DNA of 64,000 nt, taken from contig NC_134677.1 in the NCBI RefSeq assembly GCF_024713945.1, positions 3,041,001 through 3,105,000 on the forward strand, given 5' to 3'. Each line of letters starts with the position of its first letter. Position 1 is the stretch's first letter. Origin of the DNA: Dermatophagoides farinae (Eukaryota > Arthropoda > Arachnida > Sarcoptiformes > Pyroglyphidae). Shown here piece after piece: positions 11,601-54,874 of this stretch. The translations under genes and the position numbers were made by a program. A model generated the notes under the pieces. That model did not search any database. It was not told the origin of the DNA and saw only the letters and a list, made by a program, of their open reading frames with translations.

Positions 11601-11695
11601 AAAGCCGATTCCATATGTACGATACATTTTTTTTCATGTTTCCAAAAAAATCATTAGATTGATCATTGGCCGACTGCTACTGCCAAGGATCAACA

Positions 11696-12056: not shown

Positions 12057-12238
12057 TGGTATGCAACATTTAAAATTTTTGTAGTAGTAGTGCATATGAG
12101 ATGACCTATAGCCATTTCTTACTGCGCCTATCAATCCATCCGGGATAATGAAGAATATAAAAATAAGGTGTCGAAGAAAAAGTAGTAGCAGTAATAATAG
12201 CTGAGACTAGTTTTACCAGTAACACTCGCCCGTCATTA

Positions 12239-12261
12239 GTGTGTGTGTGTGTGTGTGTGTT
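12239..12261. repeat. (GT)n microsatellite
   Basis: Uninterrupted GT tract of about eleven units in non-coding DNA. Confidence 0.85.
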
Positions 12262-14982: not shown

Positions 14983-28087
<13,105 letters not shown>

Positions 28088-28861
28088 CTGGGTGCCGATG
28101 TAGAGTTGGTCGAGGAAGATAGTCAGCAACAATGTTCACCCCAAAACACTGCTGTTGTTTTTGTTGGGAATGATGATAATGATGATGGAATTTCTAATAA
28201 CAAAAATCCTTCAAATATCATGACCATGTCTGATATAAAATGTTCAACATCCGCTCATCGAGGATCTGATCGTAGCAGTGCAAGCAGTAATCTGACAATC
28301 ACATCAAATGTCAGCAACATCAGTACATCTAATAGAATGACAGGAGTCGTGGAAAGAAGACTATCTGCTAACTATCGTACACCTGCTATCGATTTGTTGC
28401 CACCACCTCGAGCTTCATCCCAATCAATCACGAAAAAAATTTCGAATACCAGTTGTACCTCTTCTGGACATCATCATCATCATATAAAGAATCCATCATC
28501 ACGGGTCATCATTAATCGACAGCAATCGAACATATTGAAATCTGTCAAGCAACAAACAGACACTAGTCGAGGATCTGTCAATTCACAACAACAATCGTCG
28601 ACAGCTTCATTGGCTTCGTCAGCTTCATCGTCGACATCAGCTGCACCATTGACCTCTGCGGTGAATCAAAATCGTCATCGATCGGCACCTTCACAGCAAG
28701 TGATGGCAACACGTAATCATATCGAGATCTCGCCACAATCAAAAAATCGCCATCAAACAAAAATTATTCCATTGACAACAAGAAAAGGTGTCCATAAATG
28801 TATATTAGATAAATCGGTCAAATCATTTAGTAAAGGTGCACAATGCGACAATGTGAATTAA
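28088..28861 (+). CDS. In-frame open extension after the MARK stop (possible readthrough segment)
   Basis: Directly after the KA1-terminal TGA (28085-28087) the same frame stays open for 257 codons to TAA at 28859-28861. It starts CTG GGT GCC GAT and encodes LGADVELVEEDSQQQ, then Ser/Asn/Gln-rich sequence with VVERRLSANYRTP, a His run, and a C-terminus KCILDKSVKSFSKGAQCDN. The first in-frame ATG is only at 28220. I saw no AATAAA between the two stops; one lies immediately after the second, at 28862-28867. So the segment is probably in the MARK mRNA. Options: stop-codon readthrough (the TGA is followed by C, a leaky context in known cases), a base error or polymorphism at the TGA, or a separate coding unit. 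Composition matches the MARK linker, supporting real coding. Confidence 0.5.
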   Translation: MGADVELVEEDSQQQCSPQNTAVVFVGNDDNDDGISNNKNPSNIMTMSDIKCSTSAHRGSDRSSASSNLTITSNVSNISTSNRMTGVVERRLSANYRTPAIDLLPPPRASSQSITKKISNTSCTSSGHHHHHIKNPSSRVIINRQQSNILKSVKQQTDTSRGSVNSQQQSSTASLASSASSSTSAAPLTSAVNQNRHRSAPSQQVMATRNHIEISPQSKNRHQTKIIPLTTRKGVHKCILDKSVKSFSKGAQCDNVN

Positions 28862-30707
28862 AATAAATTGAATGTTGAATGGGATCTTTTCTCGACCAAC
28901 TCTCGACATGATTGGACATCGGTTTACCCACATTTCAATGAATATACCAATCATATCAAATTAAATTTGATTGATTGATTGATTGATTATAATAATTATT
29001 ATTATTGAAAATGCAACTTCTCCATAATATTATACATATACAAGTGATATATTTCTAGGAAACACAAAAAGGTATATATATAGATAAAAACATTTTCACA
29101 CATTTATCGCATGCACAAACACACACACACAAAGAGCTCTATTCTAAAAAATGATTAATATATCATCATCATCATCATCGCCATTGATAAAAAATAATTA
29201 TAACTTGTATATTTTATTTTTATATATGCGGCCCCTCTTTCTGATCATTGCATTTGCCCATTCTTTACCCAATTACCCACACACACACACACTTATTTAC
29301 GATTATCTCATCACATTTCATACACAAATCGTTATCTCATCATCATTATCGTCTTGAATCTCTCACAGTGATGAACCAATCAAACAATTTAATTCATTTC
29401 CATTTCTCATCTTTTATTGTTATGATTTTTTTATTTAGATGAACAAAAATTTACACACACACACACACACACACAGATACTTGAATGTATAACAAATATG
29501 CACAAAATTACATAATTTAAAAAAAACGATTCAAATTTCCTTTACACTATTAAAAAAAAGTACACATAGGTCTGATTTATAATATTTGACATTTTTTAAT
29601 CATTTTTTTTTGTTTTTTTTCAATAAGAATGACAATGACAACAATACCAATAAAACAATGAGATAATGTTCAAATCATACATTTAACACTGGAATTCCTT
29701 TATTATCGATGATTGATGCAAAGAAAAACTATTTATATAAACAAGAAAAAAAATGAAACAAATTTGTTCTTCGTGTAATAAAAAATGTTGTTATTATTAC
29801 AAATGTTATGATCAACATCGATATGAAAATGATGATGGCGATGAAAAGACTTTTTGTTATAATATCTTTTTTGTGTGAATCTGCAGATCAATTTTTCTCA
29901 CATAATGTATGTTTTTTTTTTAACCACAAACACACATAATCTCATCGAACAAATCGAATCTTTCGAGCTTCGATTTTATAATTTCATTTTTAATTGAAAA
30001 TTTTTGCATCCACTTACAATACATACACTAATGATGATGATGAACGTTTGTATACAGGTTTCTACCCCATTTTCATTATTATTATCATTTTTTTTTTGTT
30101 AAAAATCTTTTATTTGGAACTCATTCATTTTTTTTTCATTTCAAATTAATCATCATCATTATCATCATCAATCAACTAAAAACAAAAAAAAAACACGAAT
30201 CTCATTTTTTTTTCGTTCACAAAACGCGTTCATATTCAATTTATGACCAAGTCTGATTCATTCTCAAATGAACTAATTATTGTTCTTCAATTTTTATTCT
30301 TTAAAACGATTGTACAATTTACACATGCCTTCCTTGAATACATTTACAGACACACACACACATAATCCATTCATTGATATTTAAATGGATTAATTTATGT
30401 TGATTGGATTGTTGTCATTTCAAGCACACACAGATCCACAATCATAAACAAACAAAATCAAATCTCAGACCGCCGAAATATAATAAATCTACATGAATCA
30501 AACACATTGAACATATTGAAAGAAGAAAAAAAATTTATTAGGATTTGTTGTCAATTTCGATATTATATAAAAAATTGAAAATTAATTAAATTGAATTTTA
30601 TTAAATTTATTATTGCAATTTGAATATTGAATATTTATTGATGAAAAAAAATCTGAAATAGTTTTGTCATCGTTTTTTTTAGTTGTATATTGTTCTATTT
30701 AAAAAAA
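28862..30707 (+). other. 3' flank of MARK and intergenic region before the CK1-like gene
   Basis: AATAAA at 28862-28867, then AT-rich DNA with (ATTG)n at about 28967-28989, (CA)n at 29453-29475 and several T/A runs. Short frames here are translated repeats. No gene seen. Confidence 0.6.
28967..28989. repeat. (GATT)n microsatellite
   Basis: Five tandem GATT units in the MARK 3' flank. Confidence 0.85.
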
Positions 30708-31773
30708 ATGTCGGTCATATCCAGTCCTGTACTCAATGATCGTTACGTAATTAATAAGAAATTAGGATCCGGATCATTTGGATTTGTTTATTCGGGTGAG
30801 GATCGAGAAAATGTATTCCATATGATTGCCATTAAAATCGAAAAATTTAATTCTAATGAAACAAATTCTTATCATCTTAATAATGAATATAATGTTTATC
30901 GTTTTCTAAAAAATTATCATGGTTTTGCTCAATTTTATGTCTATCAAAAATCGCTTTATCATGGCCCAAGTTTCATTGTTATTGAACAATTATATAGGAA
31001 TTTGAATCAATTATTCGATATGTGTAATCAACGATTCACGTTGGATACAATATTGGAAATTGCCATACAAATTATAACCAGAATTGAAACATTGCATTCC
31101 ATTGGGTGAGTTTATGCTGGGGTTTATTGGTTTTGTTTTTAACAATCTACCAATCATTCACTCATTCATTCATAAATCATAGCTTTGTTCATAGAGATAT
31201 AAAGCCAGAAAATTTTATGATTGGATTTCCAAAATCCAAACAATATCGAACTATTCATCTAATTGATTTTGGCTTATGTAAACGTTATCGTAATCCACAT
31301 ACAATGGAACATTTTTCGCCTAGTAGCCATGATCGTATGGTTGGATCGGTTTTATTCATGAGCTGTAATTCACATTTTCAATTGAAACAATCTAGACGCG
31401 ATGATATTGAATCATTGGCATATTTATTGTTATATTTTTTGAATGGAAAAAATTTACCATGGTCTTTTGGTTCTGGCAACAATCTTGCCAAAAACAATCC
31501 ATTAGAACATTGTCGAAAAGTTGGCTCAATGAAACAATCATTGACATCAGATCAATTGTTTGAAAATCATTTAAAAGTATTTGCCAATTTACTCAGGTAA
31601 AAAAGTATCAATTTTTAATGTACAATATGTAAAAATAACATTTCATTCCATCTATGTACAAAAGTTATGCAAGGAATCTTGATTTCACTGATGAACCAAA
31701 TTATGAAATGATACGATCGGAATTTGCCAGATTTAAATCAAACAAAGAAACTGTTTTTTCATGGGAATTATAA
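30708..31773 (+). CDS. Divergent casein-kinase-1-like protein kinase, 306 residues, 3 exons
   Basis: Exons 30708-31105, 31183-31596 and 31665-31773; both introns (77 and 68 nt) are GT-AG and phases close to 306 codons plus TAA. The start ATG lies in an A-rich context. Kinase features: glycine loop LGSGSFGFVY (about residues 19-28), Lys43 in MIAIKIE, HRDIKPEN at 136-143, and IDFG with Asp161. The CK1-type signature QSRRDDIESLAYLLLYFL supports the CK1/TTBK/VRK group. The usual CK1 segment GTARYAS is replaced by GSVLFMSCN, so it is an outlying member, perhaps lineage-specific. All catalytic residues are present, so it is probably active. It stops just after the kinase core, without a regulatory tail. 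Its stop codon faces that of the minus-strand gene across one base. Confidence 0.85.
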
Positions 31774-35100: not shown

Positions 35101-36487
35101 TTGATCAATCAATCAATCATATAGGATTTGTCTATCGGAATCGACCATGCATCATAAAATCGATATATCTGGTATGTGATTTGTCATATCTAAACAATTT
35201 ATTTTTTTTATGTCATTGATATGATTATTATTAGCATTTGCTATGTGTAGCCTGTTTTATTTATTGATAATATCCATTTCAATTATCAATTGAATGAATT
35301 TGATATTCTTTGTTTTTGTGTTTTTCATCAATCTTCAATGATTGATTTGTTTTATTTTCATTTTTTTCATCATCATCATCATCATCATCATTTTATTATC
35401 CAATATTGAGTTTTTGCTTTTGTGTTGGTGGTTCCATTCAATTAACTAGAGATGCAATATATACACAAAAAAAACATATTTATTTAGTGAGAAGGTAAAA
35501 AAAATAAGAAAAAAATTGCATCATTTACACCCACACACACACACACGATCGGATATAAAAGATTTTTTTCGTTTTGGAAATGATCAATTTTTTTTTTTGC
35601 TGATCTCAAGAAGAAGATGATGAAGCAAAAAAAAAATGTTTATTCAAATTTTGGCCATACAACAACAACAACAACAACATCAACAGCAACCACTCCGGTA
35701 AAATATAATCGACAAACGACAATGATGATGATTGCCTTCTATGTCGTCATTGTGTATGCACATTATAAGTATCACATAAGAATTGTATATATTCATTCAA
35801 TATTCATAATGAAGATATTTTTATTTATTTATAACATTTTCTATCTATAATACAAAAGAAAAAAAAATATTTCTATGGTAAATGTTTGAATGTATATGAA
35901 ATTGTGGTCTTTCATGTGTTGTATATTAAGTGTGATAAATGTGGTGACATACATACATGCACATTTTGAATGAACAACAATATCGTGTATATGAAACAAA
36001 AAAAAGGAATAAGAATAAAAAGAAAGAGAAAATAAAGAAATAAGAATGAGTCAAGAAAGTCAAAGAAAGAAAGAAAAAAAATCAAAGAAGAAGATGATTG
36101 GAAATTTTTTCATTTTATTTCATTTTTTTTTTGTTTTTGTTTTTCTATATATACGAAAAATATAAATTCGTGTCACTTTGTGTTTCGTTGTTCTTTGTAG
36201 TCGGTTTTTTTTTGTTTTCATATTTCCTATTCATTCTTTTTTTCTGCAATATGTTTTGAATAAGCAATAAAAAACAAATTATCATCTGAAGATGTTTACT
36301 AATTGTTTCTTATTTCAAGTCAAATTCTAGTTAAAATATATTATTTTTAACTTTGAACCACTATACAACAGAATAACAATACCTATTGCCCTTTATTTGA
36401 TTGACTGTTTTTTTTTAAATTATTCTTACAAACGTTTCTAGGTTTGATCATCACTTGTTTCAATTTAATTGATTGGCCAAATTCCCA
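32130..36487. other. Intergenic region between the 95-residue gene (-) and FAK (+)
   Basis: About 4.4 kb of AT-rich DNA with CAT/GAT, GT and T runs. No gene supported. A short ATG-led frame with a Thr run (from about 35617) ends at CCG followed by GTAAAA and might be a 5' exon, but evidence is weak. Confidence 0.5.
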
Positions 36488-52096: not shown

Positions 52097-52513
<417 letters not shown>

Positions 52514-52559
52514 ATCTATCCATTTTCATTCTAATTTAATCCATCATTCATATACAAAC

Positions 52560-52575
52560 GGTCCTTTTTAGGACC
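52560..52575 (+). terminator. Histone mRNA 3' stem-loop of H3
   Basis: GGTCCT-TTTT-AGGACC: a perfect 6-bp stem with 4-nt loop 47 bases after the stop, matching the stem-loop bound by SLBP for non-polyadenylated histone mRNA ends. A backup AATAAA lies at 52640-52645. Confidence 0.93.
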
Positions 52576-53516
<941 letters not shown>

Positions 53517-54023
53517 TTCTGTTTTACATCATTTTACAATTTGCATTCATCCATTCATTTCATACTCATCTATATCGATCAAAAACGGTCCTTTTCAGGG
53601 CCACAATTGTAATTTAGATTAAGAGCTTTTTTTTAATATTTTTGTTTATGAATAATAAATTTTTGTATTGTAAAAAAATATCTGATTCTATGAATTTTAT
53701 TATGAAAATAAACTGGTAAATTTGGAATTAATAGCTGAATATCAAACAAGTATAAGTGCCTTGATATTTATCGTTAGAAATTGATAAATATTTTTGTCAA
53801 TTTGTCAAATTCAATTTCAACTATTCTGGTGAGCATTTGAACACGGAAAAGGAAATTGAAAAGATAAATGATCATCATATTGTTTTAAAATAAGATTTTT
53901 TCTGGCCATTTTGACATAGAATTTGTATAATAGATACCATTCATGTTTACAATCTTTTTGAGTTTCACGTTCTGGTTTGAAAACAAAAACGAACATTCGA
54001 TTTGATGAGTATTAGAAAAATAA
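53517..54023. other. H4-H1 spacer, with the H4 3' stem-loop inside it
   Basis: 507 bases, AT-rich. Apart from the stem-loop at 53587-53602 and AATAAA at 53654-53659 I see no gene or other signal. Confidence 0.55.
53587..53602 (+). terminator. Histone mRNA 3' stem-loop of H4
   Basis: GGTCCT-TTTC-AGGGCC, 6-bp stem with one G-U pair and a TTTC loop, 71 bases after the stop. AATAAA at 53654-53659 could serve as a backup polyadenylation signal. Confidence 0.9.
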
Positions 54024-54123
54024 ATCCCTCCCACTGATTTTCCCTCCAAATTTAAATTTCGCGCTCTTTTCATGCTCCGCCTTCGAGTATAGCTTTGTTC
54101 TGATGGTCGAGTATAAAAAAGCA
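54024..54123 (+). promoter_or_regulatory. Histone H1 promoter block, near-copy of the H3 promoter
   Basis: Ungapped match to 51921-52020 at a constant offset of 2103 bases. TATAAAAAA at 54112-54120 lies 106 bases before the H1 ATG. Differences cluster in a short segment (GTTTTGTC versus GTATAGCT) just downstream of the shared CTTCGA, while the TTTCGCGC core, CATGCTCCGCC, GATGGTCGA and TATA box are retained. Confidence 0.85.
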
Positions 54124-54217
54124 AGTTGAAGCAAGTTGAATCATCAATTTGGTTAGTGGCCTTTTTTTTTTTACGTCGTGAATTTCTCTCACTATTTTTC
54201 TCGAAACAACAACAACA

Positions 54218-54874
54218 ATGACCGAAGCTGAAGCAACTCAAGCTGCTCAGGCTAGCGAGCCAAAAAAAGCCAAAGCTGTCAAGCCAAAAGCACCAAAGGG
54301 CGAAAAGAAACCAAAAGTTAAGCCCAATCATCCACCAGTTGCATACATGGTGATATCGGCCATTAAAGAATTGAAGGACCGTAATGGATCATCCGTACAA
54401 GCCATCAAAAAGTATATCCAGGCCCACAACACCGTTGATATCGAAAAAATCACCCCGTTTATCCGAAAATATCTTAAATCTGGAGTGGTCAAAGGTGAAT
54501 TGGTTCAAGCTAAAGGCAGAGGTGCTAGTGGATCGTTCAAATTGAACAAATCGGCCAAAGGTGAAGGTGATAAACCGAAAAAAGTATCAAAGCCAAAATC
54601 GGTGAAACCAAAATCACCGAAATCAAAAGTTCCAAAAGTAACCAAACCATCGAAATCAGCTGGCGAAAAAAAAGTGAAGATGGAAAAGGAAAAGGCACCA
54701 AAAGCCAAATCTGCAGCCGTCAAAAAAGACAAGCCAAGCACACCGAAAAAGACAGCCAAACCAACTAAGGCTAGTAAACCTAAAGCAGAAAAGAAAAAAG
54801 CAGCATCGAAACCGGCTAAATCACCGAAAAAAGTAGCAGCCAAAAAACCAACATCGAAGAAGGCAAAGAAGTAA
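54218..54874 (+). CDS. H1: Linker histone H1
   Basis: Intronless, 218 residues. It binds linker DNA at the nucleosome dyad and compacts chromatin. Short acidic/Ala start ([15 protein letters not shown]) and a Lys/Pro patch, then the winged-helix globular domain at about residues 30-110 ([45 protein letters not shown]), followed by a Lys/Ala/Pro/Ser-rich tail with SPKK-type motifs. Length and layout are typical of arthropod H1. It shares its promoter block with H3 and has its own 3' stem-loop, so it is probably S-phase expressed. H2A and H2B are not in this window. Confidence 0.96.

Follow-up and report, generated by a model that had tools for sequence, protein, structure and literature searches.

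Putative stop-codon readthrough in an animal MARK/par-1 gene and a predicted long-range stem around the extension

Readthrough in related genes and its known signals

MARK/par-1 is a central polarity kinase, and the par-1 gene of the fly is the ortholog of MARK. Ribosome profiling led Dunn et al. (2013, PMC3840789) to include par-1 of Drosophila melanogaster among the readthrough genes of their Table 2, with an extension at 2R:15370912-15371608 (696 nt with half-open coordinates), a PhyloCSF score of 654.90 and a predicted NLS. Among the literature matches listed this was the only statement on par-1 readthrough, and because of it readthrough of MARK/par-1 is not new in itself. The gene described here resembles the fly one in kind and in having an in-frame extension, of 771 nt without the TAA against 696 nt in the fly; the likeness is one of gene and extension length, and the fly stop may be another than the ELKL stop described below. 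Unlike the fly extension with its predicted NLS, the tail found here has none by simple motifs, a difference that counts against readthrough here. The passage of PMC3840789 on par-1 mentions no long-range stem.

Abundant readthrough was placed in insects and crustaceans by Jungreis et al. 2016 (PMC5100048), where all other species tested earlier, one arachnid included, are said to have apparently had considerably fewer readthrough genes, which counts against a case like the present one. If the DNA is from a mite, readthrough of its MARK would be an outlying case relative to the insect/crustacean lineage. By title no report of readthrough in mites was found, and the term "translational readthrough" was absent in the best 15 of 653 literature matches on mites. 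Readthrough in both fly and mite par-1/MARK would suggest an old, useful recoding outside the lineage in which abundant readthrough has been placed.

Regarding the stop context, UGA-CU has been tested as a core motif and reported to be sufficient for readthrough in reporters of the fungus Ustilago (PMC4207609, which also has a section on human cells). The best motif after UGA is given as CUA G, and it is found in the mammalian readthrough genes OPRL1, OPRK1, AQP4 and MAPK10 (PMC4132726). The MARK stop shares the CU after UGA with these four genes but is followed by CUG G, so the stronger CUA G motif is absent, which counts against readthrough here; they differ also in that 12 nt past the stop are apparently enough there (PMC4132726).

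Stems 3' of the stop, as predicted in the present case, have been described in the fly genes drifter (dfr) and headcase (hdc) (PMC13170385, PMC5100048). The dfr stem, at +9 to +59, raises readthrough, a shift away from the stop by 3 to 9 nt lowers it, and dfr stems of lower energy were reported to give more of it (PMC13170385). It is, however, a local hairpin, in contrast to the stem predicted here, which spans the whole extension. Signals of this long-distance kind are described in plant viruses. In the coat-protein readthrough signal of potato leafroll virus (PLRV) and in related signals of luteo-, polero- and enamoviruses an element just after the stop pairs with one some hundreds of nt further on in one simple helix (PMC9553062, PMC5893793), as predicted for MARK, and in PLRV this helix, with ~670 nt between its arms (763 nt in MARK), is reported to be essential for optimal readthrough (PMC9553062). 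Like the PRTE and DRTE of such signals, the sequence just 3' of the MARK stop is complementary to a distal element (-46 kcal/mol). PLRV (PMC9553062) differs from the present case in being a plant virus with a leaky UAG; the MARK helix is a predicted one that lies nearer its stop, and its distal arm belongs to the 3'UTR, beyond the second stop, a position shared with tombusviruses. Among the matches listed from the openly licensed literature, searched for insect, cellular and metazoan cases, we found no long-distance readthrough signal in a cellular gene, and the MARK stem, if true, would bring into a cellular gene a mechanism met there in viruses only.

The end of the MARK gene and the frame behind it

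The window (the whole stretch of DNA analysed, 64 kb) contains a MARK/par-1 kinase gene, of which eight exons are visible (Table 1); their splice sites were picked by reading, and 5' exons lie further upstream. Joined, these exons give 1032 amino acids with one stop only, at the end. Kinase, UBA, a linker rich in Ser, Asn and Gln, and KA1 follow one another in a single protein that ends in ELKL, as is characteristic of MARK/par-1 kinases. Pfam matched Pkinase (5.1e-79) and UBA (7.2e-06) in the joined kinase-UBA part, and KA1 at 6.1e-21 with the end of its profile (45/45) on the last residue before the TGA. The four PDB sequences that match the MARK end, all MARK1 or MARK3 constructs, can be aligned up to the final residue of the query; three of them stop at this residue and the other, 1v5s, runs six residues further. 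To our knowledge all MARKs end at this position. The preliminary description of this DNA had said the same, and the statement holds for the four PDB sequences and for the Pfam KA1 domain, in a comparison that spans MARK1 and MARK3. By both KA1 and the MARK1/MARK3 chains, then, the TGA is the usual MARK end. At the start of the KA1 exon there is a tandem acceptor, AAG/TAG at 27760-27763 (by reading), and the frame is kept with either AG, with a difference of one residue.

Table 1 Features of the MARK locus (positions in the window)
Feature	Position	Strand	Basis or remark
MARK/par-1 kinase gene, visible part	23994..28087	+	exons joined, domains by Pfam
Exons 1-4 of the visible part	23994-24211, 24281-24689, 24749-24939, 25019-25231	+	splice sites by reading
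Exons 5-8 of the visible part	25302-26341, 26831-27334, 27502-27702, 27763-28087	+	splice sites by reading
TGA stop, proposed readthrough site	28085-28087	+	sequence; context TTA TGA CTG G
In-frame readthrough extension (proposed), 257 codons	28088..28858	+	coding score, composition
Second stop, TAA	28859..28861	+	sequence
AATAAA between second stop and distal arm	28862..28867	+	sequence
Proximal arm of predicted long-range stem	28089..28120	+	32/32 nt paired in fold; starts 1 nt after TGA
Distal arm of predicted stem, 3'UTR	28884..28930	+	22 nt between TAA and arm
Upper helix	28884-28903 with 28102-28120		19 bp, -27.0 kcal/mol
12-nt bulge in distal arm	28904-28915		
Lower helix	28916-28930 with 28089-28101		-18.0 kcal/mol

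Behind the TGA the frame stays open in phase with MARK over the 257 codons that had been described, up to the TAA. The other frames of the same region contain 13 and 22 stops on the forward strand and 18, 11 and 18 on the reverse one. At the stop frequency of non-coding DNA the chance of 257 open codons is ~2e-8, and when 20,000 sequences were simulated with a Markov model of the dinucleotides of the extension itself, none remained open, in agreement with the earlier judgement that a chance frame in phase is unlikely. Stop-to-stop runs of at least 257 codons make up 10 of the 8240 in the window, and the MARK tail ranks tenth; by reading, recognisable genes or a MARK exon account for seven of the other nine, and no name could be assigned to the last two, which are rich in Ser and lie near 36470 and 58881. 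At nine other gene ends, picked by hand in the window, 2-47 codons are open past the stop.

The coding character of the tail was measured with a codon score, for which 4434 codons from the window's other frames served as the training set, MARK left out. The tail reaches 0.28 bits/codon, against a mean of -0.22 (sd 0.07, maximum -0.04) in 676 non-coding segments of equal length, which overlap; the exon and non-coding intervals behind the score were set by eye. The 13 training segments themselves, two of them frames without a name, span -0.03 to 0.62, with one near zero, so the score is an imperfect one. Of nine blocks along the tail seven lie at 0.18-0.64 and two are lower (0.024 at 28448 and -0.055 at 28718), an unevenness that counts against the reading, as does a reverse frame at 0.11. 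The G+C content by codon position is 43/48/29%, compared with 26-28% overall in six presumed non-coding intervals. The coding-like composition that had been noted for this frame is thus borne out, and it extends from the TGA up to the TAA. The first in-frame ATG is found 44 codons into the tail, and the 44 codons ahead of it score 0.35 bits/codon (-0.25 and -0.22 in the other forward frames), so the coding character begins near the TGA and not at the internal ATG.

From the sequence at hand, programmed UGA-CU stop-codon readthrough of MARK is the best reading of this arrangement, with a probability that we put at about 0.8. The preliminary description had proposed it, and it is supported by the coding frame from the TGA on, the usual MARK end, the UGA-CU context and the fly par-1 precedent. 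The leaky context had also been pointed out there; the TGA is followed by CTGG and so includes the readthrough core motif UGA-CU (PMC4207609). In most rounds of translation the ribosome would stop at the TGA, giving the normal kinase ending in ELKL, and in some rounds the UGA in its leaky UGA-CU context would be decoded by a near-cognate tRNA, with the ribosome going on for 257 codons to the TAA. The product would be a MARK isoform whose KA1 is followed directly by a long tail, mostly of low complexity. KA1 normally ends MARK, and a tail of 257 residues in this place, if true, would make a second kind of MARK.

A predicted stem spanning the extension

The sequence that follows the TGA is predicted to pair with the 3'UTR behind the second stop, a stem that the preliminary description does not mention. 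The duplex of the two arms has an energy of -46.0 kcal/mol. On its proximal side 32 bases in a row are paired, while its distal side carries bulges of 2, 12 and 1 nt. In a fold of 28040-28930 the whole proximal arm is paired with the distal one, and this stretch as a whole folds more stably than shuffled versions of it (z -2.6, 0/20). The pairing probabilities between the arms were 0.69-1.00 in contexts of 0.9, 1.3 and 1.9 kb. Long-distance folding of RNA inside cells is uncertain. When 27780-29700 is folded, 28077-28087, the closing codons of MARK plus the TGA, pairs with 29675-29686, beside the long stem; this pairing is AT-rich and perhaps due to chance.

Pairing of this strength is rare in the window. 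Dinucleotide shuffles of both arms gave nothing as strong (0/3000; mean -21.6, sd 3.3, z -7.4), nor did shuffles of the downstream kilobase (0/300). Among 236 stops that end runs of at least 60 codons the MARK stem is the strongest, the next one reaching -34.2. Sliding along the window, 1 of 3140 positions on the + strand and none of 1570 on the - strand were as strong. Furthermore, when the 12 proximal codons were recoded synonymously only 15 of 3000 versions reached the energy of the stem (mean -30.8); the pairing is thus strengthened by the choice of codons. The 38-nt window used in these tests was set after the stem had been noticed, which makes the stem statistics somewhat optimistic; their margin is large all the same. 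The single + strand position sampled with a stronger duplex is a CA repeat at 11681 (-54.6 kcal/mol), whose partner is presumably the GT repeat near 12221-12241. A transposon origin of the inverted repeat was considered and rejected: no target-site duplication was seen by eye, and stretches of 13 and 15 bases of the proximal arm (allowing up to 2 and 3 mismatches) have no copies in the window other than at the distal arm.

Whether such a stem could act on a ribosome depends on its distance from the stop. The lower helix, which is 1 nt away from the stop, should be opened by a ribosome standing at the UGA; the upper helix begins 14 nt after the stop. With 6 nt after the stop masked to mimic the ribosome 30 nt were still paired, and with 8-14 nt masked 22-23 nt; masking 8 nt already loses the lower helix and leaves the upper one. 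For long-distance signals a helix base ~7-9 nt after the stop is called necessary (PMC9553062), and the spacings of 1 and 14 nt found here differ from it and count against a neat fit. A ribosome pausing at the UGA would face the upper helix, formed by part of the 32 nt just past the stop and the 3'UTR element. The distal arm, placed past the TAA, would never be translated; a readthrough ribosome would open the stem from the proximal side only, and the stem could form again. As a stimulus of readthrough we regard the predicted stem as about evenly balanced between true and not.

The main competitor, a sub-case of the reading preferred here, accepts that readthrough is real and denies that the stem drives it, which we consider less likely than not. 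The stem would then be a chance or neutral inverted repeat or have another role in the 3'UTR (binding of double-stranded RNA proteins, localisation, circular RNA), and UGA-CU alone would leak. In favour of this, UGA-CU was enough in the Ustilago reporters (PMC4207609), and in flies and mosquitoes readthrough is reported to persist although its structures appear and vanish (PMC5100048). The spacing from the stop is unusual (PMC9553062), and the bulges are all in the non-coding arm, a pattern that an inverted duplication would likewise show if it decayed next to a coding arm. On the other side, the stem starts 1 nt after the stop and has its other arm a little beyond the second stop, none of the 236 stops has a stronger one, the codon choice of the proximal arm favours it (15/3000), and the proximal-arm stretches are found elsewhere in the window only at the distal arm.

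If the stem does stimulate readthrough, its distal arm could be removed by the choice of poly(A) site. No AATAAA is present between the two stops, as the preliminary description had stated, and ATTAAA is absent there as well; the AATAAA that it placed directly after the second stop is indeed found at 28862. Other signals follow, ATTAAA at 28960 and more at 29549, 29649 and beyond. Predicted folds of mRNAs ending at 28877 or 28890 had no pairs to the distal region, and one ending at 28897 had 13, so that cleavage at the AATAAA at 28862 would take away part or all of the distal arm. Alternative polyadenylation, if true, would be a simple control of the extended MARK isoform. Together this makes a tentative picture, which we hold with a little less than even confidence: a virus-style long-distance signal in an animal gene, a stem that closes nearly the whole extension, the choice of the AATAAA at 28862 as an off switch, and MARK/par-1 readthrough that may be as old as the arthropods and predate the abundant readthrough placed in insects and crustaceans.

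Other origins of the tail and its possible role

Alternative splicing is an unlikely source of the tail, though with the question of the stem's role it is one of the two main doubts. With an acceptor just after the TGA the tail would be an ordinary alternative exon end, and in-frame GT/AG pairs that skip the TGA are in fact present (for example 27974 to 28106). A splice-site matrix, for which 7 MARK donors and 6 MARK acceptors were used (the 26831 acceptor left out), gives leave-one-out scores that vary too widely to decide against such pairs, with -6.6 to 5.8 for the true acceptors and -3.3 and -3.4 for the best candidates past the TGA. However, the six AGs from the TGA to 28240 have 27-47% pyrimidine upstream, in contrast to 53-73% at the seven true acceptor positions, and the best GT/AG pairs would remove part of KA1. 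Splicing would also give no account of the stem at the TGA or of the listing of fly par-1; splice isoforms without the stop are mentioned in the methods of Dunn et al. among the things considered (PMC3840789).

That the TGA at 28085 is a sequence error or marks a stop-gained allele, in a protein whose tail is normally always made, is still less probable. A single base decides the matter and one sequence is at hand, but the TGA coincides with the KA1 end in the Pfam profile and in 3/4 matched MARK chains, and this disfavours a base error, which would need to strike that one codon with the stem starting one base later.

Editing of the A to I, turning UGA into UGG (Trp) with the long duplex recruiting ADAR, has equally poor prospects. 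The duplex begins 2 nt from the A of the UGA, and in the fold reaching 29700 the UGA pairs with 29675-29677, but in the shortest fold this A is unpaired, and the G at its 5' side is a poor neighbour for ADAR. In flies editing was tested as a source of readthrough and found unsupported (PMC3840789).

We give no more credit to a separate protein begun within the tail, whether by reinitiation at a CUG, at an internal ATG or from a second promoter. A CTG, the commonest non-AUG start, comes directly after the TGA, and an in-frame ATG is available further on. A start at this ATG would leave the coding-like codons ahead of it unexplained, an objection that has no bearing on a CUG start. As for selenocysteine, the stop is a UGA but no SECIS was found in the MARK 3'UTR, with no SECIS family among five sub-threshold Rfam matches in 27500-30600 and a single match to a loose SECIS pattern (at 28853) whose fold was judged not of SECIS form, and we discard it almost completely.

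Under readthrough of the UGA, the best reading, the tail would be an appendix mostly of low complexity. Ser, Asn, Thr and Gln make up 42% of it, and its net charge changes from -8 over the first 40 residues to +20 over the remainder. The fly curators describe many of the longer readthrough tails as low-complexity regions with a disordered look, and the low-complexity MARK tail fits this remark (PMC4528330). Neither Pfam nor NCBIfam gave a match to the MARK tail with an E of 1 or less, and nine PDB matches with E of 0.11-0.94 were dismissed as chance. Relatives of the KA1-plus-tail protein were searched in bacterial/archaeal and viral contigs, where 17 and 3 stretches respectively matched the pattern and none encoded one. 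A simple motif search of the tail gave no classical NLS and one 14-3-3-like site, RHRSAP.

A single-sequence structure model of KA1 plus the tail has a mean pLDDT of 40, with residues 119-331 below 50, and tells little about the tail except at its very end. The last 35 residues of the tail (28754-28858), with block means of 59-73 and predicted strands, are its only part modelled with moderate confidence and could possibly be a small conserved motif. As to function, we would guess at an altered localisation of the kinase or at control via KA1.

In addition, a second kinase gene is found at 30657-31600, about 1.8 kb past the MARK tail on the same strand, and it is casein-kinase-1-like by reading; both of its pieces match Pfam Pkinase, one above and one just below the cut-off. 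Further along the window, histone H3, H4 and H1 genes (names by reading) lie close together on the + strand at 52097-54874.
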